Positions 2,234-30,296 of a stretch of 46,692 nucleotides of DNA are shown piece by piece; position 1 is the first letter of the stretch; every line of letters starts with the position of its first letter. The translations under genes and the position numbers were made by a program. The notes beneath the pieces are model-generated. The model saw only the letters and a program-made list of their open reading frames with translations, did not search any database and was not told the DNA's origin. This DNA comes from Clostridia bacterium (GTDB taxonomy: Bacteria; Bacillota; Clostridia; Christensenellales; Aristaeellaceae), in the NCBI GenBank assembly GCA_017427165.1, contig JAFRTK010000154.1, forward strand, positions 1 to 46,692. The letters are read 5' to 3'.

Positions 2234-2262
2234 TTGACAATACACCCCCCTGTCATTATAAT
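2234..2262 (+). promoter_or_regulatory. Sigma-A promoter of the transport/NHL/DUF5696 cluster
   Basis: TTGACA (2234-2239) and TATAAT (2257-2262) are separated by exactly 17 bases, a full consensus match. The start is expected near 2269, giving a leader of about 110 bases. The leader holds a small hairpin, TGATCC/GGATCA at 2328-2346. Confidence 0.85.
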
Positions 2263-2380
2263 ATTTGTGCATACAACCCATGTTGTTTTTGGTTGGTTTC
2301 CAGAAAAGAATATCCGTTCTGAACGCCTGATCCGGGTGTCGGATCATGCGTTTTGTGCGGGAACAGTGGGAGATGGACTC

Positions 2381-5266
2381 ATGACAAGGAAATGGCGGAA
2401 CGTGATCATCGGAGTTCTGGTAGTCGCGCTTCTGGGCGTGGTGCTCTGGCTGCTCAGCCAGGGGACCGACAACTACCGGGCCAAGTATGAGGGTACGGAT
2501 CTTTCCACGGATGTTTCAGGCGTTGGACGCAGCAATACGTACAGCGCTTATCTGGCGTCCCACGCCGGTGAAGCAGCCGTGAAGGAAGAGATTCCGGTTG
2601 ACGTTTTCTCCTTTGAGGGAGAGGGCGAAGCCCGGGCAGAGGGTGTATTCACACCGGAAGAAACAGAAGCTTCCTGGAAGGTAAACGTTCCCCAGGCCGG
2701 ACTGTACAACGTCCGCCTCGATTACCTGACGACCCAGAGCCGCGGCGTCGACATCGAGCGCGAACTCCTGATCAACGGGGAAGTGCCGTTTGCCGGTGCC
2801 TCCGCACTGACCTTCAGCCGCCTGTGGACAGATGCGGGTGAGGTCCGGCAGGACAACCAGGGCAATGACATCCGCCCCAGCCAGAAGGAGATTTTCGAAC
2901 GGCAAACCGCATACTGCAAGGATGATATGGGGTACCAGACGGAGCCCTATGCTTTCCATTTCGATGAAGGCGAAAATACCATTACCCTGCGGGCAGTGAA
3001 TGAACCGGTTGTGATCTGCGGAATGACGCTGGTGCCGATCAAGAAGGCACCGGAGTATGCGGATTACGCCGCCGCCCAGCCGGAAGCCGCCATGACCGAT
3101 GAGGGAAAGAACTATTCACAGACTGTCCAGGGCGAGAGCGCTACGCTGCGCAGCGCCCCCAGCCTGTATGCCCGGTATGACCGGAGTTCCTCCCAGACCG
3201 TTCCGTATTCCGTGAATACCACGGTACTGAACTATATCGGCGGCGACCCGTGGACCTATCCGGGAGACTGGATCGAATGGCCGTTTGAAGTGCCGGAGGA
3301 CGGCTACTACTATATTTCCATCAAGGCCCGCCAGATGTACCAGCGCGGCGCACTGTCCGCGCGGACTGTTTACATTGACGGAGAGGTTCCGTTCCGGGAT
3401 CTGGAAGCCGTAACCTTCGGCTACAACACCGCATGGGAAATGCGGACGCTGGGCGACAAGGACGGAAACCCCTTCCGCTTCTTCCTGAAAAAGGGCGCCC
3501 ATACGATCCGTATGGAAGTAACACTGGGCGAAATGGGCCCCGTGCTGCAGGACGTGGAAGACAGCGTTTTCCGCCTGAACCAGATTTACCGGAAGCTGCT
3601 GGTGCTGACCGGCGCGACACCGGACCGGTTCCGGGATTACAAGCTGAATGAGGTTTATCCTGAAGCGATCGAGGCAATGGAGCTGGAAAGCAAGCGCCTG
3701 TACAAGATCGTGGACGACGTGGTGGCAACCACCGGCGAGAAGAGCGACCGGATCGCCGCCGCGCAGACCCTGGCAGTCCAGCTGGAGCAGTTTGTGGAAA
3801 CCAACGAACGGATTACGGAATCCTTCGGCAACTTCAAGGACAACATCACGTCGCTGGGCTCCGCCATGCAGAACATGTCCGAAAGCAAACTGGACGTGGA
3901 CCTGATCATGATTACCGGTGAAAACGCGAAGATCCCGCCGGTGCGCGAGAGCTTCCTGACCAGCGCCCTGCACGAGATCCGCAGCTGCGCGAGCTCCTTC
4001 TTTGTGGATTACAACACGCTGGGCGACAAGTATGACGCAAACGACGACAACGTGCTGGATATCTGGATTACCACCGGACGTGACCAGAGCACGGTGCTGA
4101 AGAGCATCGTGGATGACACATTCACCGTTCAGTCCGGTATCAAGGTCAACATCAAGCTGGTACAGGCAGATGCCATCCTGACCGCGGTGGTTGCCGGCAA
4201 CGGGCCGGACTTGGTGCTGAGCGTGAGCGGCTGGTTCGCCGTGAACTACGCGATGCGGAACGCGGTGGAGGACCTGACACAGTTTGCTGATTTTGATGAG
4301 GCTGTGAAGGCGTTCCATCCGAGCATCCTGGATCCGCTGAAGTACAACAACGGGGAACATACCGGCATCTACGGACTGCCGGAGACCCAGGAGACCCTCC
4401 TGCTGTTCTACCGCAAAGACATCATGGAAGAACTTGGACTGCCGATTCCGCAGACATGGGACGAGCTGATTGCGGAGCTTCCGACCCTGCAGGGCGACAG
4501 CCTGAGCGTCGGCGTTCCGTTCCCGGACGTCAACAACGTGGATACCGGCGTGTTCAACAGCCTGATCTACCAGAACGGCGGGGAGATTTACGACAAGGAC
4601 GCCAAGCGGACGCTGATCGACAGCGAAGCCGGTGTTGCCGCGTTCGAACTGTATACGAGCCTTTACAACGATTACGGACTTCCGTCCATTTACGAATTCC
4701 CCAGCCGTTTCCGCAGCGGGGAAATGCCGATGGGCATCGCGATGAGTTCCACCTATAATACGTTGTCGATTTCCGCACCGGAAATCCGCGGACTGTGGGA
4801 CTTCACCCTGATTCCCGGTACCAAGCAGGCGGACGGAACGATCAACCGTACCGCGCATACGGGCGGGCTGTGCTGCCTGATGATCAAGACGGATGACGAA
4901 AAGGTTCGCAACAATGCCTGGGAATTCATGAAGTGGTGGGTCAGCGCGGACGCGCAGGTCCGCTTCGGCCGTGAGATGGAAAGCGTGCTGGGCACCAGCG
5001 GCCGGTATATGACGGCCAACCGGGAGGCACTGCCCCAGCTGGGCTGGAACGCAAAGCAGCTGCGGGTCCTGGAAGCCCAGATGTCCCAGACACACGGCTT
5101 CCCGGAAATTGCCGGCGGCTATTCCACCACGCGTCATATGACGAATGCCATCCGCCGCGTGATCACCGCCAAGGAAGACAAGCGGGAGACGCTGATGAAC
5201 TACGCGCGGACCATTAATGAAGAAATCCGGATCAAACGGCGGGAATTCAACCTGCCGCTGGATTAA
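2381..5266 (+). CDS. Membrane-anchored extracellular solute-binding protein with duplicated N-terminal ligand-binding-like modules
   Basis: Probable substrate receptor of a carbohydrate ABC importer, 961 residues, about twice the usual size. ATG 2381 is chosen because GGGAG lies 8 bases upstream and the frame's earlier TTG is the promoter -35 box. Residues 8-26 form an uncleaved-looking membrane segment; there is no lipobox Cys. Two beta-rich modules follow, each with a matching segment (INGEVPF at residue 131, IDGEVPF at 332), suggesting duplicated carbohydrate-binding-like domains. A helical region spans about 390-555. From about 557 to the end is a type-1 solute-binding domain (DIWITTGRD, GPDLVLSVSGWF, YGLPETQETLLLFYRKD, PQTWDEL). 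It is first in the operon, 24 bases before the permease. Binding to sugar is inferred from family; the ligand is unknown. Confidence 0.88.
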   Translation: MTRKWRNVIIGVLVVALLGVVLWLLSQGTDNYRAKYEGTDLSTDVSGVGRSNTYSAYLASHAGEAAVKEEIPVDVFSFEGEGEARAEGVFTPEETEASWKVNVPQAGLYNVRLDYLTTQSRGVDIERELLINGEVPFAGASALTFSRLWTDAGEVRQDNQGNDIRPSQKEIFERQTAYCKDDMGYQTEPYAFHFDEGENTITLRAVNEPVVICGMTLVPIKKAPEYADYAAAQPEAAMTDEGKNYSQTVQGESATLRSAPSLYARYDRSSSQTVPYSVNTTVLNYIGGDPWTYPGDWIEWPFEVPEDGYYYISIKARQMYQRGALSARTVYIDGEVPFRDLEAVTFGYNTAWEMRTLGDKDGNPFRFFLKKGAHTIRMEVTLGEMGPVLQDVEDSVFRLNQIYRKLLVLTGATPDRFRDYKLNEVYPEAIEAMELESKRLYKIVDDVVATTGEKSDRIAAAQTLAVQLEQFVETNERITESFGNFKDNITSLGSAMQNMSESKLDVDLIMITGENAKIPPVRESFLTSALHEIRSCASSFFVDYNTLGDKYDANDDNVLDIWITTGRDQSTVLKSIVDDTFTVQSGIKVNIKLVQADAILTAVVAGNGPDLVLSVSGWFAVNYAMRNAVEDLTQFADFDEAVKAFHPSILDPLKYNNGEHTGIYGLPETQETLLLFYRKDIMEELGLPIPQTWDELIAELPTLQGDSLSVGVPFPDVNNVDTGVFNSLIYQNGGEIYDKDAKRTLIDSEAGVAAFELYTSLYNDYGLPSIYEFPSRFRSGEMPMGIAMSSTYNTLSISAPEIRGLWDFTLIPGTKQADGTINRTAHTGGLCCLMIKTDDEKVRNNAWEFMKWWVSADAQVRFGREMESVLGTSGRYMTANREALPQLGWNAKQLRVLEAQMSQTHGFPEIAGGYSTTRHMTNAIRRVITAKEDKRETLMNYARTINEEIRIKRREFNLPLD

Positions 5267-5290
5267 GAAACAGGAAGGGAGGAATCAAGC

Positions 5291-6238
5291 ATGCAGCAGA
5301 CACAGTCTTTCGCATCCCGTTACTTCAAGATGAAGCGGGAACAGTTCCAGCATGGACTGGTGCAGGCAAAGCATAACAAGGTATGCTACCTGTTCCTGGC
5401 TCCGTACGCCATCCTGTTCTTTACTTTCTTCATCCTGCCGATCTGTACGTCGATCTTTTACGGATTCACGTATTACAACATCCTGGAGCCGGCCCGGTTT
5501 ATCGGCCTCCAGAACTACATCAACCTGATCCTCCAGGATGAGGTATTCCTGATTGCAATCAAGAACACGTTCGTGATCGCGGTGATTACCGGACCGGTCG
5601 GATATATCCTTTCCTTCCTGTTCGCATGGTTTATCAATGAACTGCCGAAATGGATCCGCTCTGTGGCGGTGGTGATCTTCTACGCCCCGTCCATCGCAGC
5701 CTCCGCGTTTACGATCTTCTCCGTCCTGTTCCGCGGTGATGCCTACGGCTGGTTCAACGCAATCCTGATGGAGTTCGGCATTATCGAAGCGCCGAAGCTC
5801 TGGCTGATTACCCCGGACACCATGATGCCGATCCTGATCGTCGTTATCCTGTGGATGAGCATGGGCACCGGCTTCCTGAGCTTTGTTGCCGGCTTCCAGG
5901 GAATTGACCGGAGCATGTATGAAGCCGGATATGTGGACGGCGTCCGCAACCGCTGGCAGGAACTGTACCATATCACCCTGCCGAGCATGAAGCCCATGCT
6001 GCTGTTCGGCGCGGTGATGAGCATCACCAACGCGTTCAACGTCAGCGACGTTCCGCGGATGCTGTGCGGATTCCCCTCCACGGACTACGCGGCCCGCACG
6101 GTGGTTACCCACCTGTTCGACTATGGTTTCAGCCGGTTCGAGATGGGCTATGCCAGCGCCATCGCGACCATCCTGTTCCTGGTCATGATTCTGTGCAAGA
6201 AAGCAATCACCGGATTGCTGGGAAGGGTGGGAACCTGA
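5291..6238 (+). CDS. ABC sugar transporter permease, LplB/UgpA type
   Basis: Integral membrane subunit (315 residues) of a CUT1-like carbohydrate importer. About six hydrophobic helices are visible, starting at YLFLAPYAILFFTFFILP near residue 35. The EAA loop that docks the ATPase is present in the second half (YEAGYVDGVRN then ITLPSMKP). It starts at ATG 5291 behind AGGAAGGGAGG. It lies between the solute-binding gene and the second permease (1-base gap), so it probably pairs with the product of 6240. No ATPase gene is nearby, so it would need a shared MsmX/UgpC-type ATPase encoded elsewhere. Confidence 0.93.
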   Translation: MQQTQSFASRYFKMKREQFQHGLVQAKHNKVCYLFLAPYAILFFTFFILPICTSIFYGFTYYNILEPARFIGLQNYINLILQDEVFLIAIKNTFVIAVITGPVGYILSFLFAWFINELPKWIRSVAVVIFYAPSIAASAFTIFSVLFRGDAYGWFNAILMEFGIIEAPKLWLITPDTMMPILIVVILWMSMGTGFLSFVAGFQGIDRSMYEAGYVDGVRNRWQELYHITLPSMKPMLLFGAVMSITNAFNVSDVPRMLCGFPSTDYAARTVVTHLFDYGFSRFEMGYASAIATILFLVMILCKKAITGLLGRVGT

Positions 6239-6239
6239 T

Positions 6240-7466
6240 ATGAGTGAGATCAATACAGTCAAATCAAACGGCACCCTGAAACTGATTGACGGCAAGAAAT
6301 ACCGCGGATACCTCCAGGCGGACGAAACCGGCGTGGCCTTCTACCCGAAGGGAAAGACCGAGCCTATCGTACAGTGGACCTATCCGCGGATGCACCGGAT
6401 GGACCGGATCCGCCGGGGCGGCACTTCCGGCGAGATTACCGTAATCCTGAAGGATGACAGCCGGTATATCTTCGACCTGGACTATGGCCTGAAGCTATAC
6501 GACCATATGGACAAACACTGGGCTGACAAGCCGGTGATGCCCAGGACCCGCGGCGATGAGCTCCACCGCCTGGCGGAGCTGCGCGGTGAGAAGATCGAGG
6601 TGCCCAAGAAGCACCTGATTACGCGGCGGCATCCCAACCGGTCCATCGGCGGCGATATCGGGGTTTACCTGATCCTGCTGATCTTTGCCATCCTGATGGT
6701 GTTCCCGCTGGTATTCCTGATCGGCAACAGCCTGAAGCCGCTGAATGAATTCTTCCGGTTCCCGCCGCCCGTGTGGCCTTCCCAGCCCACAACCGACAAC
6801 TTCTCCGACCTGTTTGTCCTGATGGGGCAGAGCTGGGTTCCCTTCAGCCGGTACCTGATCAACACCGTCCTGATCACCTTCGTCGGTACATTCGGGCACC
6901 TGGTGATCGCAAGCATGGCGGCGTTCGTACTGGCCAAATACCAGTTCCCGGGCGGAAGGACATTCTTCGCCGTGGTTACCACGTGCCTGATGTTCTCAGG
7001 CTATGTGACCGGCGTTCCGAACTACCTGATCATGAGCCGCCTGGGCATGATTGACACCTACTGGGCTCTGATTCTTCCGGCCTTCGCGGCACCGATCGGC
7101 ATGTTCCTGATGAAGCAGTTCATGGAGGGCCTGCCGACCGCCCTGATTGAGGCGGCCACCATTGACGGTGCGAGCACATTCGGAATCTTCTGGAACATCG
7201 TGATGCCGAACGTGAAGCCGGCGTGGCTGACCATGATCATCTTCAGCGTCCAGGGCCTGTGGAACTCCACGGCGACCACCGTGATTTATTCCGAAGCCAA
7301 GAAACCCCTGGTATACGCCCTGAACCAGCTGCTGGCCGGCGGTGTTGCCCGTACCGGCGCAAGCGCCGCGGCGCAGGTCGTGATTATCTCCGTCCCCATC
7401 CTCATCTTCATCCTGAGCCAGAGCCGGATTCTGGAGACAATGGCCTCCTCCGGTATCAAGGATTAA
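6240..7466 (+). CDS. ABC sugar transporter permease, YtcP/UgpE type, with an extra N-terminal cytoplasmic domain
   Basis: Partner permease (408 residues). Family members are about 275-300 residues; this one has about 135 extra residues before the first membrane helix (GVYLILLIFAILMVFPLVFL, near residue 140). The extension is soluble and beta-rich with a closing helix (KLIDGKKYRGYLQADETG, GEITVILKDDSRYIFDLD), which looks like a PH/GRAM-type small barrel; that fold call is inference. The EAA loop is intact (IEAATIDGAS then IVMPNVKP). The ATG follows the previous stop by one base with GGAAGGGTGGGAA upstream, so the start is well supported and the extension is translated. Likely forms a heterodimer with the 5291 product. 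Confidence 0.92.
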   Translation: MSEINTVKSNGTLKLIDGKKYRGYLQADETGVAFYPKGKTEPIVQWTYPRMHRMDRIRRGGTSGEITVILKDDSRYIFDLDYGLKLYDHMDKHWADKPVMPRTRGDELHRLAELRGEKIEVPKKHLITRRHPNRSIGGDIGVYLILLIFAILMVFPLVFLIGNSLKPLNEFFRFPPPVWPSQPTTDNFSDLFVLMGQSWVPFSRYLINTVLITFVGTFGHLVIASMAAFVLAKYQFPGGRTFFAVVTTCLMFSGYVTGVPNYLIMSRLGMIDTYWALILPAFAAPIGMFLMKQFMEGLPTALIEAATIDGASTFGIFWNIVMPNVKPAWLTMIIFSVQGLWNSTATTVIYSEAKKPLVYALNQLLAGGVARTGASAAAQVVIISVPILIFILSQSRILETMASSGIKD

Positions 7467-7515
7467 GGTGATCCGGATGATGAACGACCGAATAAACAAC
7501 AGGAGGGGATATCCC

Positions 7516-9054
7516 GTGAAAGGAATGATCAGGGCCATTGCAATCCTGTGCCTGCTTGCCCTGCTGCCGGTCACCGTGCTTGCGGACGACAGCTACAGCA
7601 TGAAGCAGGACGGATTCAGCACTTCCTATTCCTATATTTATGACTACTGGGGCGACGTGCAGGAAGCGCCGAACCCGTACCGGGTTTCCACGGTGATCGA
7701 CAGCATGACGATCGGCCTGGACAAACTGGACGGAAAACGGATGAGCCGGCCGCAGAGCTTGTTTGTCCATGAAAAGGACCTGTATGTTGCGGACACATTC
7801 AACAACCGGATCCTGCAGCTGCGTTACGACGGCGTGGAATTCGAACTGATCCGGGTGATCAGCGAGGTCAAGGGAGCAGAGCCGGCCACCTTCAACAACC
7901 CGTACGACATTGCGGTGGACGCGGATGAGAACATCTACGTGGCCGACTACTTCAACTACCGGGTTGTGATGATGGACAAGGACCTGAACTTCATCAAGGC
8001 GTTTACAAAGCCCACGGATTCCACCTATGACCAGGGCCTGGATTTCCTTCCAAAGAAGATCGCGGTGGACGTTGCCGGCCGGGTATATGTGCTCGGCGCG
8101 AACATCAACAAGGGTTTCATCAAATATGAAGCGGATACGACGTTCACCGGCTATATCGGCGCCAACCAGGTATCTGTCAATATGGCCCAGTATATCTGGA
8201 AACGGTATTTCCAGACGAAGGAGCAGCGGGCAGCTTCCCAAAGCTTCGCGCCGACGGAATATGAAAACCTGTATATTGATGATGAAGGCTTCATCTACGC
8301 GACGAACACCATCTTCAGCGAATATGACCTGAAGTGGGACAAGGCAAAACCAATCCGCCGGCTGAACAGCCTGGGCGGCGACATCCTGATCAAGAATGAC
8401 CGGTATCCCCCGATCGGTGATATCTGGTGGATCGAGGAGGGAACCCAGTACCTGGGACCGACCCGGTTTACCGACATCACGGTGCTGAAAAACGATCTTT
8501 ACGTGGCGCTGGACAGGACGCGCGGACGCCTCTTCGGCTATGATAACCAGGGCGTGCTGCTGTGGGCGTTCGGCACCCGCGGCAACGTGGAAGGCGCTTT
8601 CACCAGTGCGATCAGTGTTGAGCATATGGGATACGACCTGTTCGTGCTGGACCAGGTGGAAAACAGCATCACGGTTTTCACCCCGACCGAATACGGCCAG
8701 ATGATCTACGATGCCAACGAGACCTACCTGAACGGTGAATATGACCGGAGCGCCGATATCTGGCGGGACGTCATGCGGATGAATGCCAACTATCCGCTGG
8801 CGTTCCGGGGAATCGGACGGGCTATCCTGCGGCAGGATGATTTTGAAGGCGCGATGCGGTACTTTGAAATGGCCCATGACCAGGAAAGCTACGGACGGGC
8901 GTTCAAGCTGTACCGGAAACAATGGATCGAGAAGAACATCCTGTGGATTGTCCTGATTCTGGCAGTGATCCTGATTGTTCCGCTGGTGATCGGGCGAGTG
9001 AAGAGAGCAAAGTGGGAGGTGATCATGCATGAGCAGAGCAAAGTCCGCCAGTGA
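7516..9054 (+). CDS. Secreted NHL beta-propeller protein with TPR-like segment and C-terminal membrane anchor
   Basis: Unknown function, 512 residues. GTG 7516 is chosen because AGGAGGGGA lies 6 bases upstream and a signal peptide follows at once (cut likely after VTVLA). NHL-type repeats run through the first ~370 residues, e.g. RPQSLFVHEKDLYVADTFNN, NPYDIAVDADENIYVADYFN and KKIAVDVAGRVYVLG. Residues ~385-450 look like a TPR pair (YLNGEYDRSADIWRDVMRM, AILRQDDFEGAMRYFEMAHD). A membrane helix at ~475-493 and a short basic tail end the protein. The propeller should therefore sit outside the cell, tethered to the membrane beside the transporter. It overlaps the next gene by 26 bases, implying coupled translation. 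NHL propellers bind protein, RNA or sugars; which applies here is not visible. Confidence 0.85.
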   Translation: MKGMIRAIAILCLLALLPVTVLADDSYSMKQDGFSTSYSYIYDYWGDVQEAPNPYRVSTVIDSMTIGLDKLDGKRMSRPQSLFVHEKDLYVADTFNNRILQLRYDGVEFELIRVISEVKGAEPATFNNPYDIAVDADENIYVADYFNYRVVMMDKDLNFIKAFTKPTDSTYDQGLDFLPKKIAVDVAGRVYVLGANINKGFIKYEADTTFTGYIGANQVSVNMAQYIWKRYFQTKEQRAASQSFAPTEYENLYIDDEGFIYATNTIFSEYDLKWDKAKPIRRLNSLGGDILIKNDRYPPIGDIWWIEEGTQYLGPTRFTDITVLKNDLYVALDRTRGRLFGYDNQGVLLWAFGTRGNVEGAFTSAISVEHMGYDLFVLDQVENSITVFTPTEYGQMIYDANETYLNGEYDRSADIWRDVMRMNANYPLAFRGIGRAILRQDDFEGAMRYFEMAHDQESYGRAFKLYRKQWIEKNILWIVLILAVILIVPLVIGRVKRAKWEVIMHEQSKVRQ

Positions 9055-9724
9055 TTCCGTGAAGGCACTCAGGGCTGAAAAGCGGAAAGAGTCATGGTCC
9101 CGGTACCTTGATTCGCTGCGGTACTCCCTGCATGTGATCACCCATCCTTTTGACGGATTCTGGGATCTGATCCATGAGAAGAAGGGGACCCTGGCAGCGG
9201 CCCATACCTTCCTGATCCTGTTCCTGGTGGTGCGGGTGATGAAGCTGATCCTGACCAGCTTCCAGTTCATCAACGCTCCGATCCAGCATATCAATATTTT
9301 CGAGGAAGCGGGATCCCTGGCGCTGCCGTTCCTGGTGCTGTGCGTTGCCAACTGGGCGATGACCACCCTGTTTGAAGGCAAGGGCCGGTTCCGGGACATC
9401 TACATGGCAATGTGCTATGCCCTGGTACCGTATATCCTGATTCAGCTCCCGATGGTCATCATCAGCAACGGGCTGACCTTTGAAGAGGGAAGCATCTTCA
9501 GCATCATGCTGTCTGTCAGCGTGATCTGGTGCTGCTTCCTGGTGTTCATCGGCCTGATGCAGGTGCATGACTACGGCCCCGGAAAGACTTTGATCTTCCT
9601 GGTCGTAACCGTGGTCGGCGCCATGGTCATCATCTTCCTGGTGCTGACATTCTTCAGCCTGCTGAGCGACGCGATTGCCTATTTCGTGAGCCTGTACCGC
9701 GAAATTGTGTATCGCCTGTATTAA
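9029..9724 (+). CDS. Yip1-domain membrane protein
   Basis: 231 residues with a basic N-terminal 25 residues and about five membrane helices (roughly 48-70, 92-113, 130-148, 154-176 and 185-212). The pattern and the segments PFDGFWDLIHEKKGTLAAAH and ALVPYILIQLP match the bacterial Yip1 family, which is polytopic and mostly uncharacterised. Start ATG 9029 has GGGAGG upstream and lies inside the end of the NHL gene. Its fixed place between the NHL protein and the DUF5696 protein suggests an assembly or scaffold role in the membrane complex. That is inference; no catalytic residues can be named. Confidence 0.82.
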   Translation: MSRAKSASDSVKALRAEKRKESWSRYLDSLRYSLHVITHPFDGFWDLIHEKKGTLAAAHTFLILFLVVRVMKLILTSFQFINAPIQHINIFEEAGSLALPFLVLCVANWAMTTLFEGKGRFRDIYMAMCYALVPYILIQLPMVIISNGLTFEEGSIFSIMLSVSVIWCCFLVFIGLMQVHDYGPGKTLIFLVVTVVGAMVIIFLVLTFFSLLSDAIAYFVSLYREIVYRLY

Positions 9725-9739
9725 GGAGGGAGAGAGATT

Positions 9740-12322
9740 ATGAAAAAGAAGAGATCCCTCATCCTGCGGCTTCTTCCGTGGCTGATTATCCTGGCGGCGA
9801 TTGCGGCACTGATCATCTTCGTATTCGTTCCGATTTATTCCCAGCAGGAAACAAGCTTCGGGGCTGATCCGGTCGTTTACGAATACGAAGGAAAGAACGA
9901 CCCGCTGAAAATGGAAACCGACCGCCTCCTGTTTGAAATGGATCCGGCGACCACCCAGTTCACCCTGACCGACAAGCAGACGGGGAAGGTATGGAACTCC
10001 AACCCGGCGGAAAGGGATAAGGATCCGGTAGCCCGGGGCGTCAACAAGGAAGCCCTGTCCTCCACACTGAACGTGACCTATACCACCAGCGGCGGTGAGG
10101 TCGAGCTGAACAACTTCAGCTATTCCATCCAGAACCAGAACTTTGAGATCGTTCCCGGCGAGGACGGTTCCATCCGGGTGAATTACGCCATCGGCAAAAT
10201 CGAGAAGAAATTCATCCTGCCGATCGCGATGACCGAGGAAAGATACGAGCAGTTCACCGGGAATATGAGCAAGAAGAACAAGAAACAGGTTTCGAGCAAC
10301 TATTCCCTGTATGAGCCCTCCAAGCTGGACAAGAAGGAGAATAAGGAAGAGATCATCGCCCGGTATCCCTCCGTGGTTGACCAGGCGCTCTATATCCTGA
10401 AATCCGATACATCCTCCACCAACAAGGGAAAACTGGAAGCCCTGTTCCGGGATGCCGGATACAACGAGGAAGAGTTTGCGGTTGATATGGAGCTGGTGGC
10501 TGAAGCGAAGAGCAACAACGGCCCGGTTTTCAACGCGTCCGTGGTTTACCGCCTGGACGGTGAGGAGCTGGTCGTGGAAGTGCCCTATGACAGCCTCCGG
10601 TGCGAGGGTGACTATCCGATGTCGTTCGTCAGCGTGCTGCCGTATTTCGGTGCTGCCGGCACTGACCAGGAAGGATATATGCTGCTTCCGGAAGGCGGCG
10701 GCGCCTTGATCAGATACAACAACGGAAAGCTTTCCCAGAGCGCGTATTACGCCAACCTGTACGGATGGGACTACGCCACGGAAAGAAAGGAAGTCATCAG
10801 CGAAACGCGGAACGCATTCCCGGTATTCGGTATGGGGCAGCAGGACGGATCGTTCCTGTGCGTGATTGAAGGCGCCAGCTCCTATGCCGGAATCAACGCG
10901 GATATCGCCGGACGGTTCAACAATTACAACTTTATCTATCCCAAGTACAACGTCATCCATTATGACAAATTCAACGTTTCCAACCGGACCGCATCCCTTC
11001 TGTATATGTACGAGCAGGCCATCCCGAACGACACGGTGGTCCAGCGGTACTTCTTTACGGACAACGACAGCTATGTGGAGCTGGCCAATATCTACAGCCA
11101 GTATCTCCGCCGCGATCCGGAGCTGCGGAACGAAACGGCCAGTGCGGATATTCCGGTGAATGTGGAACTGGTCGGCGCGATTGACAAGAAAGTGCCGAAG
11201 CTGGGCATGCCGGTCAAATCGGTTGTGGCGCTGACTACATTTGACCAGGCGGGAAGCATCATCGACGAGCTGAAGGACAGCGGCATCAGGGACCTGAACG
11301 TCCGGATGACCGGATGGGCCAACGGCGGCGTCTGGCAGAAGGTACTGACCGGGGTGCATACCCTGAATGAGCTGGGCGGCGACGGCGGCATGAAGAAACT
11401 GATCGCCCATGCCTCCGATAAGGGCGTGAACCTGTTCTTCGACGGTATTTCCTGCTTTGCCTATGACAGCGGCCTGCTCGACGGTTTCCTTCCGTTCTCA
11501 AATGCAGCCCGGTTTACCACCCGTGAACAGGCGATCATTTACAACTATGATATCGTTACATATCAACAGGCTGACTGGTCGGGGATGGATCCATACTACC
11601 TGGTACGGCCGGAATACGCCCAGAAATGCGCGGATAACCTGATCAACGCGCTGAAGGACCGCAACGCGGCCGGCGTCGCATTCCGCGATATCGGCAACCT
11701 GCTGAGCGCGGACTATTACGCCCAGAATACCGTGACCCGGGAACAGGTGAAGGAAATGAACATCAACACCCTCCGGGACGCGGTGGCCAAGGGACTGAAG
11801 ATCAGCATCAAGGAAGGCAACAATTACGCCATTCCGTATGCGGACATGATCACGGATATGAACCTGACCGGCAATACCTATGCGATTATCGATCAGCGGA
11901 TTCCTTTCTACCAGATCGCAATCCACGGAATGAAAGATTACACCGGAGAATCGATCAACCTGGCGGGCGACTACCAGACGGCCCTGCTGGAATGCGCGGA
12001 ATACGGCGCCGGGCTGAACTTCACCTTCATGAAGGAAGATACGCCGGTGCTGCAGGACTCCAAGTATTCCTGCTACCGTTCCGCATCCTATGACCGGTGG
12101 AATGAGATCCTGACGCCGCTGATCCTGCGCTACCAGGCGGAGATGGCCGGACTGAACCGGCAGAATATCACGGGCCATGAACAACTGTCCAAGGAAGTTT
12201 CCGTGACGGAATACGCGGACGGCACCAAGGTTTATGTCAACTACAGCAACCGGGATTACAAGGACGGCGGAACCGTGATTCCTGCCAGAGACTATAAGGT
12301 GGAAAGGGGGAACGGGCAGTGA
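9740..12322 (+). CDS. DUF5696-type membrane-anchored protein with glycoside-hydrolase-like segment
   Basis: 860 residues, starting at ATG 9740 with GGAGGGAGAG upstream. Residues ~10-32 form a membrane anchor after a basic start (MKKKR), so most of the protein is extracytoplasmic. The first ~250 residues are beta-rich (TQFTLTDKQTGKVWNSNP). The middle and C-terminal part resembles DUF5696 and has alternating strand/helix segments like a TIM barrel of the glycoside hydrolase kind: DLNVRMTGWANGG, GVNLFFDGISCFAYDS and GVAFRDIGNLLSADY. The Asp and Glu residues at strand ends are candidates for catalysis, but I cannot assign them. A polysaccharide- or glycan-processing role next to sugar permeases is inference. 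Its stop overlaps the next start (GTGA). Confidence 0.8.
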   Translation: MKKKRSLILRLLPWLIILAAIAALIIFVFVPIYSQQETSFGADPVVYEYEGKNDPLKMETDRLLFEMDPATTQFTLTDKQTGKVWNSNPAERDKDPVARGVNKEALSSTLNVTYTTSGGEVELNNFSYSIQNQNFEIVPGEDGSIRVNYAIGKIEKKFILPIAMTEERYEQFTGNMSKKNKKQVSSNYSLYEPSKLDKKENKEEIIARYPSVVDQALYILKSDTSSTNKGKLEALFRDAGYNEEEFAVDMELVAEAKSNNGPVFNASVVYRLDGEELVVEVPYDSLRCEGDYPMSFVSVLPYFGAAGTDQEGYMLLPEGGGALIRYNNGKLSQSAYYANLYGWDYATERKEVISETRNAFPVFGMGQQDGSFLCVIEGASSYAGINADIAGRFNNYNFIYPKYNVIHYDKFNVSNRTASLLYMYEQAIPNDTVVQRYFFTDNDSYVELANIYSQYLRRDPELRNETASADIPVNVELVGAIDKKVPKLGMPVKSVVALTTFDQAGSIIDELKDSGIRDLNVRMTGWANGGVWQKVLTGVHTLNELGGDGGMKKLIAHASDKGVNLFFDGISCFAYDSGLLDGFLPFSNAARFTTREQAIIYNYDIVTYQQADWSGMDPYYLVRPEYAQKCADNLINALKDRNAAGVAFRDIGNLLSADYYAQNTVTREQVKEMNINTLRDAVAKGLKISIKEGNNYAIPYADMITDMNLTGNTYAIIDQRIPFYQIAIHGMKDYTGESINLAGDYQTALLECAEYGAGLNFTFMKEDTPVLQDSKYSCYRSASYDRWNEILTPLILRYQAEMAGLNRQNITGHEQLSKEVSVTEYADGTKVYVNYSNRDYKDGGTVIPARDYKVERGNGQ

Positions 12323-13305
12323 GCAAGAAAACGCGGAAACGCCGGGAACACTGGTACAGCGGTATTACGGAAGCTATTCAGATGTATATTCCCGGAAACA
12401 AGCTGTACCATACCATGCCGGCCAGGCGCGCCCGGACCGGGACCCTGTTTATCCTTCCGTTCATCATCGGGTTTATCTTCTTTATGGTCCGCCCGCTGGT
12501 GATGTCGCTGCAGATGAGCCTGAATGAGGTGAACCTGATCCGCGGCGGCGGTTTCACCATGACATGGAATGATTTCTACAACTATCATTACGCGCTGCAG
12601 ACGGATCCGAACTATAACCAGTACCTGGTGGATGAGATCAGCCGGATGGTGATCAACACGATCGCCACCCTGGTGCTGAGTTTCGTGATCGCTGTAATCC
12701 TGAACCAGAAGTTCAAGGGACGGATCCTGTGCCGGATTATCTTCTTCCTGCCGGTTATCCTGTCCTCCGGCGTTCTGCCCGGCATCGAAAGCTCCAATGA
12801 GTTCTACAACATGATGACGGATATCGGCAACTCGGTGCAGAACTCATCCGGCGTGGACATTGCGGCATCGCTGCAGGATCTGCTGCAGGTTTCCGGTGTG
12901 GCCGGCGAGGTGTTCGACGTTGTCTTCCAGATGATCAACGCGATTTACGACATTGTCATGGCCAGCGGCATCCAGATCATCGTATTCCTGAGCGGCCTGC
13001 AGTCCATCTCCCCGTCACTGTATGAAGCGGCAGATGTGGAAGGCTGCTCCGCATGGGAATCTTTCTGGAAGATCACTTTCCCGATGGTCAGCCCGCTGCT
13101 GCTGGTGAACTGCATCTATACGATTATCGACTTCTTCATGAAGAACGACAACCGGGTCATTGAGAAGATCAATGACGTTATGTACGGCGTCCGGATGGAC
13201 TTCGGCGTGGCCTCCGCCATGAGCTGGATCTACTTCGGCGTTGCCCTGCTGTTCATCGGAATCAGCACATTCATCATCACAAGGGCGGTGAAGTCTTATG
13301 AGTAA
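12319..13305 (+). CDS. ABC sugar transporter permease, MalF/UgpA-like, with long external loop
   Basis: 328-residue permease starting at GTG 12319, overlapping the DUF5696 stop by 4 bases. The first helix is TLFILPFIIGFIFFMVRPLV near residue 48. The EAA loop is LYEAADVEGCSAWESFWK with FPMVSPLL. Between the helix at FLPVILSSGVLPG and the one before the EAA loop there is an insertion of about 60 residues, rich in polar and acidic residues (NEFYNMMTDIGNSVQNSSG), likely outside the membrane. Such a loop could contact a binding protein. It pairs with the 13298 gene and gives the cluster a second permease pair. Confidence 0.9.
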   Translation: MSKKTRKRREHWYSGITEAIQMYIPGNKLYHTMPARRARTGTLFILPFIIGFIFFMVRPLVMSLQMSLNEVNLIRGGGFTMTWNDFYNYHYALQTDPNYNQYLVDEISRMVINTIATLVLSFVIAVILNQKFKGRILCRIIFFLPVILSSGVLPGIESSNEFYNMMTDIGNSVQNSSGVDIAASLQDLLQVSGVAGEVFDVVFQMINAIYDIVMASGIQIIVFLSGLQSISPSLYEAADVEGCSAWESFWKITFPMVSPLLLVNCIYTIIDFFMKNDNRVIEKINDVMYGVRMDFGVASAMSWIYFGVALLFIGISTFIITRAVKSYE

Positions 13306-14308
13306 GGACAACACGGTATTCATCGGGAAAAGCCAGGACTTCTGGACCCGGAACCGCCGCAGTGAAGGATACCTGCTGAAGCGCAGGGTCAAGGAAATTG
13401 TGGTTTCCGTTGTCCGCGCACTGCTGATGTTCGGCCTGTGCTTTATGATTATCCAGCCCATGCTGACCCGCTTCTCCATGAGCCTGATGGAGGAGAAGGA
13501 CCTTTATGACTCCACCATCATCCTGCTGCCGCGCCATGTGACGCTGGACAACTACCGGATTGTGGCGGACCTGACGAGTTTCCCGGAATCCATGATCAAC
13601 ACGCTGTGGATTTCCATCGTGATTTCGATCTGCCAGGTTGTTGCGGCGACCCTGGTGGCTTACGGGTTTGCCCGGTACGAATTCCCGCTGAAGAAATTCT
13701 GGTTCGCCTGCGTGGTGCTGCTGATCATCATCCCGCCGCAGACGATCCAGACCTCCCTGTATATCACATTCGCCCAGTTTGACCTGTTCGGAATCATCAA
13801 GGCGCTTACGGGCGATACGGTGAACCTGCGGTCCTCGATGGCGCCCTATGTCATCATGAGCCTGACCTGCATGGGCCTGAAGAACGGACTGTTCATCTAC
13901 ATGATGCGGCAGTACTTCAAGAACGTTCCGATGAGCCTGGAAGAGGCCGCTTATGTGGACGGCTGCGGCACGATGCATACGTTTGTGAAAATCATGCTGC
14001 CGGACGCCGTTCCGACAATTGCCAGCTGTTTCCTGTTCAGCTTTGTATGGCAGTGGACGGACCTGTTCTACTCCCGGAACTTCCTGACCAGCTACCGGAC
14101 GTTCGCCGTGCAGATGAGCACGATGGTCAGCCGGATGGGCCGCTATTTCTCCAGCGACGCCACCCAGTCGGTCATCGTACCGAACGGACGCCAGCTGCAG
14201 CTGATTTCCATCGCGGTGCTGTTCTGCTGCATTCCGCTGATCATCCTGTACTGCTTCACGCAGCGGACATTCGTGGAAAGCCTGGCCATGACGGGTTCCA
14301 AGGAGTAA
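13298..14308 (+). CDS. ABC sugar transporter permease, MalG/YtcP-like
   Basis: 336-residue permease overlapping the previous gene by 8 bases. Membrane helices are clear (VVRALLMFGLCFMIIQPML, FACVVLLIIIPPQTIQ, AVLFCCIPLIILYCF). The EAA loop reads EEAAYVDGCGTMHTFVK and IMLPDAVPT. It probably forms a heterodimer with the 12319 product and takes substrate from the solute-binding protein encoded at 14481. As for the other pair, no ATPase is encoded nearby. Confidence 0.92.
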   Translation: MSKDNTVFIGKSQDFWTRNRRSEGYLLKRRVKEIVVSVVRALLMFGLCFMIIQPMLTRFSMSLMEEKDLYDSTIILLPRHVTLDNYRIVADLTSFPESMINTLWISIVISICQVVAATLVAYGFARYEFPLKKFWFACVVLLIIIPPQTIQTSLYITFAQFDLFGIIKALTGDTVNLRSSMAPYVIMSLTCMGLKNGLFIYMMRQYFKNVPMSLEEAAYVDGCGTMHTFVKIMLPDAVPTIASCFLFSFVWQWTDLFYSRNFLTSYRTFAVQMSTMVSRMGRYFSSDATQSVIVPNGRQLQLISIAVLFCCIPLIILYCFTQRTFVESLAMTGSKE

Positions 14309-14362
14309 CCGGAAAAGTACAGACAACTGACACGAAAATGGCGAAAAAAACCGCAACAATAC

Positions 14363-14391
14363 TTGAATCTTTGTCGGATGTGGTATATAAT
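14363..14391 (+). promoter_or_regulatory. Internal promoter before the second solute-binding protein
   Basis: TTGAAT (14363-14368), 17 bases, TATAAT (14386-14391). It gives a start near 14398 and an ~80-base leader, allowing the binding protein to be made in excess over the membrane parts. Confidence 0.8.
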
Positions 14392-14425
14392 CTGCCTGCG
14401 AGGAAAAAGATCGCATAATAACGCA

Positions 14426-14456
14426 CCTATACGGGCTTTGTGAAAGGTCCGTAAGG
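14426..14456 (+). other. 5'-leader stem-loop of the second solute-binding gene
   Basis: CCT-A-TACGG-G-CTTT with loop GTG and AAAG-GT-CCGTA-AGG on the other side: 12 pairs with small bulges. It ends 8 bases before the AAGGAGG ribosome site. It may protect the mRNA 5' end or tune translation; function is inferred. Confidence 0.55.
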
Positions 14457-14480
14457 AAATAAAAAAGGAGGTTTTCTCGT

Positions 14481-15953
14481 ATGAAGAAAATCCTGGCTCT
14501 GGTTCTGGCCGCTATGATGCTGCTGGGTATGTGCAGCGCGATGGCCGAAGCTCCCGAAGGTTATCCCGAAGTGATCGAAGGCCTTGACTTTGGCGGCCGC
14601 ACGGTCTACATCTATGACTGGTGGGGAAATGACGATGCTGAACACAGCACCCGTCAGGCTGAACCCGATGCTGAAACCCAGGCTCTGTATGACTACCGTG
14701 ACTGGCTCGAAGCGACCTACAACGTCAAGATCGTTGAGACCGCTCTGAGCGACTGGTCCGGCAACCCCGCTGAACTGACCAACATCAACATGAATGGCGG
14801 TCTGAACGGCAAGGGCGACGAAGGCGACTGGTGCATCATCGCGATCGCGGCTGACTTTGCTCCCGCGACCCTGAAGAATGACCTGTATATGCCCTGGACG
14901 ATCGACCTGTCCGCTGAAAAGTGGAATCCGGTTACCACCAACTTCATGACCAAGGACGGCAAGGTCCTGGGCGTGCACGTTGGCAAGACCGAGCCCCGCA
15001 GCTGCCTGTTCTTCAACAAGCGCGTGCTGGAAGAAGCCGGTATCGACTGGAACACCATCTATGATATGCAGGCGGACGGCACCTGGACCTGGGAAGCCTG
15101 GGAAAACATCATGGACCAGGTACAGCGTGACACCGACAACGACGGTATCACCGACATCTACGGCCTGACCGGTTCCGGTGATGACATGGCGGTTGCCCTG
15201 GTGTTCGCCAATGGCGCTTCCTTCTTCGACAAGGACGAAAACGGCAAGATCACCTTGGCCGTTGACAGCCAGGCTGCCCTGGACGCTCTGGATGAGCGCG
15301 TCAAGGTTTGGGACAAGTACGCCTGCCCGACGCCCGAAGGCGCCAACTGGGACTGGTTCAAGACCTATTGGGAAGAAGGCACCTCCGCGTTCTACGCCGG
15401 CCAGACCTGGCAGGGCTTCAACGACGGTGCTGAAATGGACGACATGCAGGACGAGTGGGGCGCTGTGATGGTTCCGAAGGGACCCAATGCTGAGACCTAC
15501 AAGGCCATGGCGTGCGACAACATCTACGGCATCCCGAATGTCTACAGCCCCGAAGTTTCCGAGAAGATCCAGATGATCTATGACCTGTACACCGACGATG
15601 TGCCTGGCACCGATTCCGAAGACAACTGGATCGGCAACAAGTACAACAAGACCGACGAGCGTGCTGTTGACGAGACCTACGCCATGATGCGTGAGCCCGA
15701 GCATACCGCTCCGAACTACACCTTCAACCTGGGCTCCACCAACGACGTGCTGGGCAGCGCGCTGCTGTGGGGACCGATCAACAGCAAGGGACCGGCCCAG
15801 GCTGTTGAAGAATCCAAGGGATTCTGGCAGGATCTGATGGACGTGTTCAATGGCGTCAAGACTCAGGAAGAAGTTGACGCTGAGAACGCTGCTGAAGAAG
15901 CTGCTGCCGCTGCCGCTGCAGAAGCTGCTGAAGAGGCTCCCGCTGCTGAATAA
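14481..15953 (+). CDS. Secreted extracellular solute-binding protein, type 1
   Basis: 490-residue receptor for a sugar-type ABC importer. AAGGAGG lies 9 bases before ATG 14481. The signal peptide ends AMA|EA at residue 22; a Cys at 18 is preceded by Met, so a lipobox is not convincing. The mature part has the family signs: YDWWGND, SCLFFNKRVLEEAGID, TWTWEAWENIMDQVQ, DTDNDGITDIYGLTGSG and WGAVMVPKGPN. The last ~25 residues are almost only Ala and Glu. Codon use differs from its neighbours: many GCT and GAC/GAA codons, as in very highly expressed genes. It has its own promoter and a strong terminator. Likely serves the 12319/13298 permeases; ligand unknown. Confidence 0.9.
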   Translation: MKKILALVLAAMMLLGMCSAMAEAPEGYPEVIEGLDFGGRTVYIYDWWGNDDAEHSTRQAEPDAETQALYDYRDWLEATYNVKIVETALSDWSGNPAELTNINMNGGLNGKGDEGDWCIIAIAADFAPATLKNDLYMPWTIDLSAEKWNPVTTNFMTKDGKVLGVHVGKTEPRSCLFFNKRVLEEAGIDWNTIYDMQADGTWTWEAWENIMDQVQRDTDNDGITDIYGLTGSGDDMAVALVFANGASFFDKDENGKITLAVDSQAALDALDERVKVWDKYACPTPEGANWDWFKTYWEEGTSAFYAGQTWQGFNDGAEMDDMQDEWGAVMVPKGPNAETYKAMACDNIYGIPNVYSPEVSEKIQMIYDLYTDDVPGTDSEDNWIGNKYNKTDERAVDETYAMMREPEHTAPNYTFNLGSTNDVLGSALLWGPINSKGPAQAVEESKGFWQDLMDVFNGVKTQEEVDAENAAEEAAAAAAAEAAEEAPAAE

Positions 15954-15988
15954 TTCAGCTGAATTCAGATTCATTGTCTGAGTTTCCG

Positions 15989-16021
15989 GGCCGCCGCACA
16001 AGATGTGCGGCGGCCTTTTTT
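15989..16021 (+). terminator. Strong terminator ending the transport cluster
   Basis: A perfect 12-bp stem GGCCGCCGCACA / TGTGCGGCGGCC with loop AGA is followed by six T. It marks the end of the cluster. Confidence 0.93.
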
Positions 16022-21138: not shown

Positions 21139-24100
21139 TCAGCGGCGCATGCAGTTGATATCCACCAGTTCCGTGTTTTCCAGGGTAAAGCGGGAACCCA
21201 GGATATCCATCAGTGCATTGGCGGTATCCAGCGATGTCATGCAGGGGATGCCCAGGACCATGGCCCGGCGGTGGAGCGCAGTATAGTCGCCCACGGTGTC
21301 ATCCTTGACAGCACCGGTGTATATGATGTAGTTTACAGAGCCGTTTTCCATGAGCCCGAAGATCTCATCGCTGATTTTCGGATCCGCTACGGGAGTGACA
21401 TGGATGCCGACCGCGGAAATCGCACGGGCAGTATCCTTGGTGGCGTATACGCTGATTCCCTGGTCATAACAGCGTTTGGCGACGGCAATCGCATCCGGGA
21501 AGTCCTCGTCTTCCACAGACAGCAGGACACCGGTTCTGTTCTTTTCCCGGGCGGTGGGCAGGTGGAAACCGGCAGCGGACAGTCCTTTGAACAGCGCTTC
21601 CGCCTTGGTGATGCCGATGCCGAGGACTTCACCCGTGGATTTCATTTCCGGACCAAGGATGGAGTCTGCATCGTTCAGTTTCTCAAAGGAGAAAACCGGC
21701 ACCTTGATGGCGCAGTACGGCGGGGCCTTGTACAGCCCTGTGCCGAAGCCCAGGTCCTTCAGCGGCTCATCCAGCATGACGCGGGACGCCAGGTCCACCA
21801 TCGGGACACCTGTGACCTTGGAAATATACGGTACGGTGCGGGATGCCCTGGGATTTACCTCAATGACATACAGCTCATTGTCAAAGATCAGGTACTGGAT
21901 ATTGACCAGGCCTTTGGTGCCCAGTGCCAGAGCCAGCTTGGTGGAGATATCGCAGATCTTTTCCTGGAACTTCTCCGTAAGGTTGAAGGGCGGATAGACG
22001 GCGATGGAGTCGCCGCTGTGGACGCCGGCCCGCTCAATATGCTCCATGATGCCGGGGATCAGGACATCGCGGCCATCGGAGATAACATCGACCTCCAGCT
22101 CGATTCCGGGGAGGTACTGGTCCACGAGAACCGGGTTTTCAATCCCGCCGGCGAGAATGCGGCGCATATAATCCTCCGTATGCGCCCGGCTGCGGGAAAT
22201 GGTCATATTCTGGCCGCCGATGACGTAGGAGGGACGGAGCAGAACCGGATAGCCCAACTCTTCCGCCGCGGCAACCGCTTCCTCCATCGTGCGGACGCCC
22301 ATGCCGCGGGGACGGCGGATGCCGAACTGCTCCAGCAGCGCATCAAAGCGTTCCCGGTCTTCCGCAATATCGATGGATTCGGCACTGGTGCCCAGGATGC
22401 GGATGCCCTGTGAATTCAGGAACTGCGTCAGCTTGATGGCGGTCTGGCCACCGAAGGCAACCACAACGCCCACGGGCTGTTCCACCTCAATGACATTCAT
22501 GACGTCTTCCGGGGTAAGCGGCTCAAAGTAGAGCCGGTCGGCGGTATCATAGTCGGTGGAGACCGTTTCGGGGTTGTTGTTGATGATGACCACATCGTAC
22601 CCGATACGGCGCAGCGTCCAGACGCAGTGGACCGAGGAATAGTCAAACTCGATGCCCTGGCCGATCCGGATGGGACCGGAACCCAGGACGATGACGACCG
22701 GACGGCCGGAACGCTTCAGGCTCCGGGATTCGCAGGCTTTGTCCGTGCAGGAGTAGAAGTAGGGGGTCTCCGCGGCGAATTCCGCGCCGCAGGTGTCGAC
22801 CATTTTGTAGCTCATCTTCCAGCCGGGCACAGATTCTGCACCGGTAATGCGTTTGATGGCATTATCCGGATAGCCCATGCGCTTGAAGCACTCATAATCC
22901 CCGGGTTGCAGGCCTTTGCCCTGCGTCCGCTGTTCGAGTTCCGCCATGGCACGGAGACGGTACAGGAAGAACCGGTCGATTTTCGTGATCTCAAAGATCT
23001 CATCGACAGTCAGCCCCTGCTTCAGGGCTTCAAAGACCGTAAAGAGCCGATGGTCATCCTGGCGGGCAAGGCGGTCGCGGACCGGCTCATCCGTCAGCGG
23101 CGGGGCATTCAGCGTATCGAGGGAGATTTCTGCGCCGCGGACTGCCTTCATCAGGGCTTCCTCAAAGCGCTGGCCGATGGCCATGACCTCACCGGTGGCT
23201 TTCATCTGGGTTCCCAGGCGGCGTGAAGAACCGTAGAACTTATCAAAGGGCCACTTCGGGAACTTGACGACCACATAGTCCACGGTCGGTTCGAAGCAGG
23301 CACAGGTTTTTCCGGTGATATCATTGGTGATTTCATCCAGGGTGTAACCCAGGGCGAGGCGGGTGGTGATCTTCGCGATCGGATAGCCGGTGGCCTTGCT
23401 GGCCAGGGCGGAGGAACGGCTGACGCGGGGATTGACTTCAATGACCGCGTACTCAAAGGAATCCGGATTCAGCGCGAACTGGCAGTTGCATCCGCCGACA
23501 ATTCCGATGGCGCTGATGATATCCAGCGAGGCGGTGCGGAGCATCTGGTATTCCTTGTCCGAAAGGGTCAGCGCCGGGGCAACGACCACGCTGTCGCCGG
23601 TATGGATGCCGACGGGGTCCACATTTTCCATGGAACAGACTGCAATGACATTGCCCTGCGCGTCCCGCATGGTTTCGAATTCAATTTCCTTCCAGCCGGA
23701 AATGCACTTTTCCACCAGGATCTGGGTGATGGGAGACGCATCCAGGCCGGTTCGGGCGATCTGGCGCATTTCCGCTTCATTCGCAGCAATACCACCGCCG
23801 CTGCCGCCCAGCGTATAGGCGGGGCGCACAATGACCGGATAGCCGATGTCCGAGGCTGCCCTGAGGGCGTCTTCCAGCGTTTCCGCAATTTCAGAGGGGA
23901 CACAGGGCTGGCCGGCGTTCAGCATGGTCTCCCGGAACTTTTCGCGGTCTTCAGCCCGCTCGATGGCCTCAATGGGGGAACCGAGCAGGCGGACACCGAA
24001 CTCATCCAGCGTTCCGTTACGGCTCAGCTGCATGGCCAGGGTCAGGCCGGTCTGTCCGCCGAGACCGGCAATCAGCCCGTCCGGGCGTTCCTTTTCGATC

Positions 24101-25381: not shown

Positions 25382-25460
25382 ACAGCGTCCTCCGGTTTTT
25401 TATAAATTCTGCGGACTGCGCAGGGTATACCGGGATACGGGAGCCCAAGGGAACCGGGAT

Positions 25461-26630: not shown

Positions 26631-26663
26631 GCTCTTTTCCTGTCGTATTGGGGAAAAACGCTG

Positions 26664-27563: not shown

Positions 27564-27574
27564 TGTTCTTCTCC

Positions 27575-29283: not shown

Positions 29284-29286
29284 CCC

Positions 29287-30210: not shown

Positions 30211-30248
30211 GCGCAAATCCTTTCCGGCAAAAAACTGATTCGGAATAA

Positions 30249-30285
30249 GACCAATCCCGCCGCGAAATACGGGGCGGGATTGGTC
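30249..30285 (-). terminator. Long hairpin between argG and argC (partial terminator or processing site)
   Basis: A perfect 13-bp stem GACCAATCCCGCC / GGCGGGATTGGTC with an 11-base loop lies just after the argG stop. On the transcribed minus strand it is followed by TTATTCCG, a poor U tract. No promoter is visible before argC. It may cause partial termination or protect the argG 3' end, making argG more abundant than the rest. Confidence 0.6.
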
Positions 30286-30296
30286 CGCAGAGACGA

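Follow-up and report, generated by a model that had tools for sequence, protein, structure and literature searches.

A conserved NHL-Yip1-DUF5696 gene set linked to ABC permeases, a candidate glycan-uptake module of Gram-positive bacteria

A cluster of nine genes in the draft genome of a Clostridia bacterium looks like two CUT1-type ABC importers joined to a membrane-anchored NHL propeller, a Yip1-domain membrane protein and a DUF5696 protein, and the same gene order recurs across Gram-positive bacteria, sometimes with many copies per genome. We consider it reasonably probable that the cluster is an ABC glycan-uptake module with an obligate NHL-Yip1-DUF5696 surface complex, in which DUF5696 would bind or orient the glycan. 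The window, that is, the whole stretch of 46,692 nucleotides that was analyzed, is contig C139 of a 2.4-Mb draft genome in 165 contigs. The nine genes are all present in it, on the + strand at 2381-15953. The features are the following:

2234-2262, + strand: sigma-70 promoter, TTGACA-17-TATAAT, 12/12 matches to consensus by motif score
2381-5266, + strand: SBP1, solute-binding protein of 961 aa (SBP_bac_1, 5e-27)
5291-6238, + strand: LplB1-type ABC permease (BPD_transp_1, 1.5e-12)
6240-7466, + strand: YtcP1-type ABC permease with ~130 extra N-terminal residues (BPD_transp_1, 4e-9)
7468-9054, + strand: NHL propeller with signal peptide and C-terminal transmembrane segment (TM) (NHL, 3.1e-8)
9029-9724, + strand: Yip1-domain membrane protein with five predicted TM (PF04893, 3e-16)
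9740-12322, + strand: DUF5696 protein with N-terminal TM and a predicted GH129/DagB-superfamily ectodomain (DUF5696, 1.3e-184)
12319-13305, + strand: LplB2-type ABC permease (BPD_transp_1, 4.3e-8)
13298-14308, + strand: YtcP2-type ABC permease (BPD_transp_1, 1.6e-12)
14309-14480, + strand: SBP2 leader of 172 nt with a promoter-like site and a possible stem-loop
14481-15953, + strand: SBP2, secreted solute-binding protein with a plain signal peptide (SBP_bac_1, 3.7e-6)
15988-16016, + strand: intrinsic terminator, a 13-pair stem followed by a T-run

The first-pass annotation of this DNA had claimed a nine-gene cluster, and gene calls and Pfam confirmed all nine. Each gene has a Pfam match, with E-values of 4.3e-8 to 1.5e-12 for the four BPD_transp_1 permeases, and the Pfam scan found no ATPase gene within the cluster. 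The coding sequence of the first gene begins at ATG 2381, position 2234 being the promoter and not a gene start, and the successive intergenic spacings are 24, 1, 1, -26, 15, -4, -8 and 172 nt. By simple hydropathy, the membrane anchoring or export claimed for the products also holds for SBP1, NHL, Yip1, DUF5696 and SBP2. SBP1 and DUF5696 each carry one N-terminal TM; the NHL protein has a signal peptide, a weak TPR-like segment and a C-terminal TM at residues 485-515, and Yip1 matched PF04893 with 60.2 bits against a cut-off of 28.6. The cluster is flanked by pheT upstream (named from its translation) and a Na/H antiporter downstream, with MFS, dehydrogenase and flavodiiron-type genes further out, so that no enzyme or regulator lies directly beside it. 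Farther downstream, a minus-strand run at 21139-31523 resembles, by reading of the translations, carbamoyl-phosphate synthase and arginine biosynthesis genes. The nearest DUF5696 relatives of the window copy come from gut Clostridia assemblies, several of them ruminant.

To return to the promoter, 300 bp upstream of 125 loci with a complete SBP1 were scored. A best score of 12/12 was reached in 24 of the 125 relatives and in 0 of 625 base-shuffled copies, and all seven relatives with the pheT-clustering flank (L037, L039, L043, L044, L182, L183 and L184) have the perfect site. Such a consensus promoter, together with the lack of a neighboring regulator, suggests constitutive expression, which in the window copy is probably also strong. 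The earlier statement that one consensus promoter drives the whole run stands as far as the promoter itself is concerned, but SBP2 may also be transcribed alone, because the 172 nt in front of it include a separate promoter-like sequence (TTGAAT-17-TATAAT at 14363-14391, score 10/12) and a putative stem-loop (z -1.85, with 7 of 200 shuffled sequences folding equally well). An RNA leader of a known kind was rejected, since no match in the window attained the gathering threshold of an Rfam family.

Conservation of the neighborhood was analyzed in three sets of loci. The first comprised the best 80 named loci of at least 588 relatives and is biased to close kin; the second, the full set of 55 strong matches in the phylum that lie outside the own genome; and the third, 25 same-family places chosen by hand, paralogues and odd sizes included. 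The sets overlap slightly: L091 and L161 lie on contigs of one and the same length, and in L078 and L186 all complete proteins are of equal length. Genes were called with a home-made caller trained per locus and assigned with profiles of the nine proteins. Of 200 same-family genomes, 113 had DUF5696 itself above the cut-off, as did at least 39 of 398 phylum genomes, where up to three candidates per genome were scored; 7 more phylum genomes gave weak matches only. NHL and Yip1 lay directly upstream of DUF5696 in 78/80 named, 53/55 phylum and 25/25 same-family loci. The misses were three contig ends (two named, one phylum) and L172, which has NHL alone, so that among testable loci the counts become 78/78 and 53/54. 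A permease pair lay directly downstream in 76/80, 52/55 and 25/25 loci, respectively, or in 76/76 named and 52/54 phylum loci when only testable ones are counted; here the misses were five contig ends (four named, one phylum) and two further phylum loci: L206, with an unassigned gene at the contig end, and L178, where LplB is followed by a long binding protein with no YtcP called in between. The second, upstream permease pair was found in 72/72 testable named loci versus 29/51 testable phylum loci. It can be deduced that the constant core is NHL, Yip1, DUF5696, LplB2 and YtcP2, and that the first importer, not directly upstream in the other 22 of the 51, is not obligatory. One exception to the order, outside the three sets, is L292 of genome G491, where NHL-Yip1 is located after the permeases and not before DUF5696.

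The first-pass annotation had held that its reading would fail if the neighborhood were not conserved in related genomes. The neighborhood is kept, and its near-invariance over the three sets rules out a chance cluster. Its statement that similar gene sets occur in Paenibacillus-like genomes was likewise correct: a Paenibacillus cellulosilyticus plasmid shows a similar set, with one YIP1 protein of fusion size presumably in place of NHL and Yip1, and an annotated plasmid of Butyrivibrio fibrisolvens D1 shows the module with GH43 in front. DUF5696 is also encoded in two fecal records named Bacteriophage sp. (MT835587 and MT835600), which we would guess are probably bacterial DNA rather than phage.

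NHL and Yip1 are a single fused protein in 35 of the 55 phylum-sample loci (54 testable), in 9/25 same-family loci and in 0/80 named loci. On the clean DUF5696 tree (160 labeled rows; FastTree, with long branches present) the fusion state changed at least 6 times. Because the fusion recurs and the two coding sequences share 26 nt in the window, we read NHL and Yip1 as probably working as one unit, with the propeller outside the cell attached to the five-TM domain in the membrane. A Yip1 protein by itself is no marker of the module: PF04893 was found in 137 of the 299 phylum genomes scanned, many of which have a single, short copy. Co-variation of the fusion with Asp650 of DUF5696 (see below) gave few independent pairs, on a tree that included eight wrong-frame ORFs.

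DUF5696 is a distant relative of the GH129 and DagB glycosidases. When a DUF5696 profile built from 16 sequences was compared with PDB sequences, only the NagBb and DagB entries were significant (E ~1e-8), the next match being at 0.27. No direct Pfam PF11308 (GH129) match was found in the own genome. A PF11308 scan of 299 phylum genomes gave no match, but its controls gave none either; the GH129 reference therefore consisted of five GH129-type proteins from the order, one of which (L117) matches NagBb at 1.2e-193. Against these five, hhalign of DUF5696 gave 99.5% (E 5.6e-23). The conservation counts, hhalign and tree were based on 202 clean DUF5696 sequences, with eight wrong-frame ORFs (L014, L022, L023, L024, L028, L031, L034 and L035) left out, and NagBb residues were numbered by counting along the alignment of L117 with NagBb. 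In this alignment, Asp650 of the window protein pairs with NagBb D435, which we take to be the nucleophile, Lys691 with E478, which we take to be the acid/base glutamate, and Thr524 with D330. As revealed by the counts, Asp650 is kept in 135/202 sequences: in 113/130 of the window's length class, 20/34 of the long and 2/38 of the short. Its presence in 113/130 is compatible with activity in that class. Column 691 is acidic in only 45/202, and the window has K691 with E692 adjoining; Asp650 together with an acid at 691 or 692 occurs in 58/202. This acid/base column rules out DUF5696 as an ordinary GH129, despite the profile similarity.

The mapping onto DagB led to a similar picture. According to the DagB report (PMC5698469), DagB keeps only Asp435 of the two catalytic residues of NagBb, as Asp486, and is active, and mutants of Asp202, Asp486, Glu517 and Glu531 are inactive. 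DagB Glu517 falls on Lys691 and Glu531 on Thr705, in a segment that aligns weakly (-0.1 bits); the placement on column 691 agrees between the DagB count and the GH129 hhalign. An acid at column 705 was found in 4/202 sequences. For Asp486, Glu517 and Glu531 of the DagB family the window protein thus has D650, K691 and T705, and across the 202 sequences two of the three mapped acids are kept in 24, one in 142, none in 36 and all three in 0. An acid at position 706 was considered as a partner of Asp650, but the association is weak at most (77 sequences with both, 58 with D650 only, 31 with the acid at 706 only and 36 with neither). The best conserved columns are found elsewhere, at G312, P317, G321, Y445, W526, G546, G730, N740 and E754; among the acids, D344 is kept at 94% and E754 at 98%, and these might belong to another active site.

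One could propose from these data that DUF5696 still cleaves glycans: it would be a membrane-anchored glycosidase forming a new family within the GH101/GH129/DagB superfamily and would trim side chains or ends at the cell surface, with Asp650 serving as nucleophile and an acid/base residue that is not homologous to the known ones. Its membership of the superfamily, the retention of Asp650, the precedent of DagB and the window's Glu692 next to the lost acid/base column all speak for this proposal, to which we give some, but rather limited, credence. The scarcity of acids at columns 691 and 705 and the near absence of Asp650 from the short class speak against it; moreover, Asp650 ranks only 153rd of 860 columns in conservation, and the tree shows at least 13 changes at this position under a constant gene order. 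We conclude that DUF5696 is glycosidase-derived, that the function conserved in it is probably something other than GH129 chemistry, and that it more likely binds than cuts glycan, although a subset may be active.

The genes next to the relatives of the module point to plant-wall glycans. Representatives of the recurrent neighbor clusters match GH10, GH43, GH115, GH5, GH26, GH3, acetylesterase and GDSL families, and also CBM65 and AraC regulators; other recurrent neighbors are HlyD-, FtsX- and Peptidase_U32-like proteins. Among the families listed, the flanks of the phylum loci gave 17 matches in 120 proteins (to GH3, GH43, GH42, GH10, GH26 and alginate lyase) versus 2 (GH5) in the 140 proteins of 20 control regions (Fisher 7e-5), a contrast that is indicative, given that the loci are partly related and that the controls come from long-contig genomes only, without enzyme-rich ones such as G491. 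The latter, of 2.4 Mb, carries ten DUF5696 modules (L155, L156, L210 and L291-L297). Eight of the ten lie beside a carbohydrate enzyme confirmed by Pfam among proteins picked by eye (GH106, GH31, alpha-galactosidase, GH43 with GH28, GH2, GH28, alpha-L-arabinofuranosidase and GH43, respectively), and for two none was confirmed. In the own genome, copy C67 adjoins two GH43 genes and an alpha-L-arabinofuranosidase, and copy C26 a CBM65 protein; GH26 stands beside the same-genus copy L179. As part of the glycan-uptake reading, and with no more confidence than we place in it as a whole, the copies would be specialized for different plant-wall glycans. Two further observations belong here: genome G511 has 22 DUF5696 matches, fragments included, and at L005:15471-16973, between the SBP and the GH43 of the arabinan-type copy, a gene encodes a protein of 501 aa whose start resembles a signal peptide and which matches no Pfam family at 0.001.

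Solutes other than glycans may be taken up in some cases, as the two modules of G491 without a confirmed enzyme, the HlyD-, FtsX- and Peptidase_U32-like neighbors and the P. cellulosilyticus copy (L304) indicate. The last has four adjacent LLM-class flavin oxidoreductases and no annotated carbohydrate enzyme, which hints at a solute other than a plant-wall glycan in that species. These oxidoreductases, the histidine kinase and response regulator upstream of the Butyrivibrio copy, and the lack of an ATPase or an enzyme in the window cluster would fit an ordinary dual ABC importer of assorted solutes, not specifically polysaccharide, with NHL, Yip1 and DUF5696 as helpers in assembly, localization or sensing. 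We regard this as unlikely in view of the enrichment of the flanks over the control regions, of the several enzyme families beside eight of the ten G491 modules, and of the binding proteins, which resemble oligosaccharide binders. The best solved-structure match of SBP1 is Lin1841 (1.5e-18), followed by other sugar-binding proteins, and SBP2 gave a weak match (5e-4) to an arabino-oligosaccharide-binding protein. That the two importers are unrelated and adjacent by chance, with no functional unit, is very improbable: the first is missing or displaced at the 22 phylum loci mentioned above, but the core NHL-Yip1-DUF5696-LplB-YtcP hardly varies across many families and the NHL-Yip1 fusion recurs, which largely refutes this reading for the core.

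The transport proteins have features of their own. SBP_bac_1 occupies the C-terminal residues 573-859 of SBP1, and its N-terminal region has weak CBM35- and Golvesin_C-like matches below the cut-off. SBP2 starts with a plain signal peptide (14481-14560). A lipobox-like motif was found in SBP2 of 8/29 of the loci L036-L075 versus 32/35 of L076-L115. A diderm envelope as the explanation for a non-lipoprotein SBP2 is without support, since no Omp85 (outer-membrane) match was found in five genomes, the own and four of the same genus. In YtcP1 the first TM is at residue 134, and the N-terminal extension before it (6240-6630, ~130 residues) has no Pfam name; a YtcP1 of 340-460 aa was found in 34/36 complete copies of L036-L075 and in 2/36 of L076-L115. 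In five loci (L078, L082, L087, L185 and L186) DUF5696 and YtcP1 are both enlarged, to 1302-2538 aa and 564-593 aa, respectively, as though their growth were linked. The MalK-type ATPase domain gave six matches in genome G000 and is present in the five other genomes searched; G491, at 98% completeness, has one match. A UgpC ATPase gene adjoins the P. cellulosilyticus copy. One MsmX/MalK ATPase can be shared among CUT1 importers.

The glycan-uptake reading that we favor would operate as follows. Secreted hydrolases would cut the polymer outside the cell. The membrane-anchored SBP1, the NHL propeller and DUF5696 would hold the pieces near the membrane, the propeller and the Yip1 membrane domain acting as a unit and DUF5696 sitting beside it by means of its own TM. 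This putative complex, adjoining LplB2/YtcP2, would capture oligo- or polysaccharide on the outer side of the membrane, with the glycosidase-derived DUF5696 most likely binding or orienting the glycan instead of cleaving it, and would pass it to the binding proteins and the permease. Importer 1 would be SBP1 with LplB1/YtcP1 and importer 2 SBP2 with LplB2/YtcP2, both powered by a MalK/MsmX-type ATPase encoded elsewhere. Hydrolysis, holding at the surface and import by SBP2 and the permeases is the most likely working order. The first-pass annotation had suggested a surface complex that binds, processes and imports a polymer; binding and import are supported indirectly by the linkage, the NHL-Yip1 fusions, the permeases with their binding proteins and the enzymes beside many relatives, but processing is doubtful, the catalytic acids of both reference enzymes being mostly lost.

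Large-glycan import by Gram-positive gut, rumen and lignocellulose bacteria is usually viewed as plain ABC import. If our reading holds, a component missing from this view would be a constant accessory complex, of which one small genome has ten copies; DUF5696, a domain of unknown function, would gain a role, and the substrate would become predictable copy by copy. DUF5696 may then be a glycosidase fold turned into a non-enzymatic part of a transport system.

Finally, the module was compared with known systems. In the open-licence PubMed Central literature we found no account of the NHL-Yip1-DUF5696 trio, its fusion or its multiplication, and no study of DUF5696. The permease and binding-protein families are those of CUT1 ABC oligosaccharide importers, with a BPD_transp_1 permease pair, an extracellular solute-binding protein and a MalK/MsmX-type ATPase elsewhere in the genome; unlike these importers, the module comprises two importers and the fixed companions NHL, Yip1 and DUF5696. 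DUF5696 shares its superfamily and the Asp650 column with GH129 NagBb (PDB 5wzn) and the GH129-like DagB (5opq), and differs from both in its membrane anchor, an extra region and the loss of most of the other catalytic acids. Gram-positive gpPULs, as defined in the consulted part of PMC5320581, combine an enzyme, a transporter and a regulator, and that part of the source does not mention the trio. Several relatives of the module likewise combine an ABC transporter, hydrolases and a regulator, whereas the window copy has the transport system and neither a degrading enzyme nor a regulator in its locus. The SusCD loci of Bacteroidota have a constant uptake core that is multiplied per genome, with different enzymes at different copies, SusC being a TonB-dependent outer-membrane protein. 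The module is also a constant core, multiplied and with different enzymes beside its copies; it differs in using ABC import and in the lack of Omp85 noted above. It might, tentatively, be seen as a monoderm counterpart of SusCD, a generic, membrane-anchored platform of NHL-Yip1 and a retired glycosidase that feeds long glycans directly to an ABC permease, with copies adapted to the individual plant polysaccharides and served by one shared ATPase. The transporter parts themselves belong to a known kind of system.
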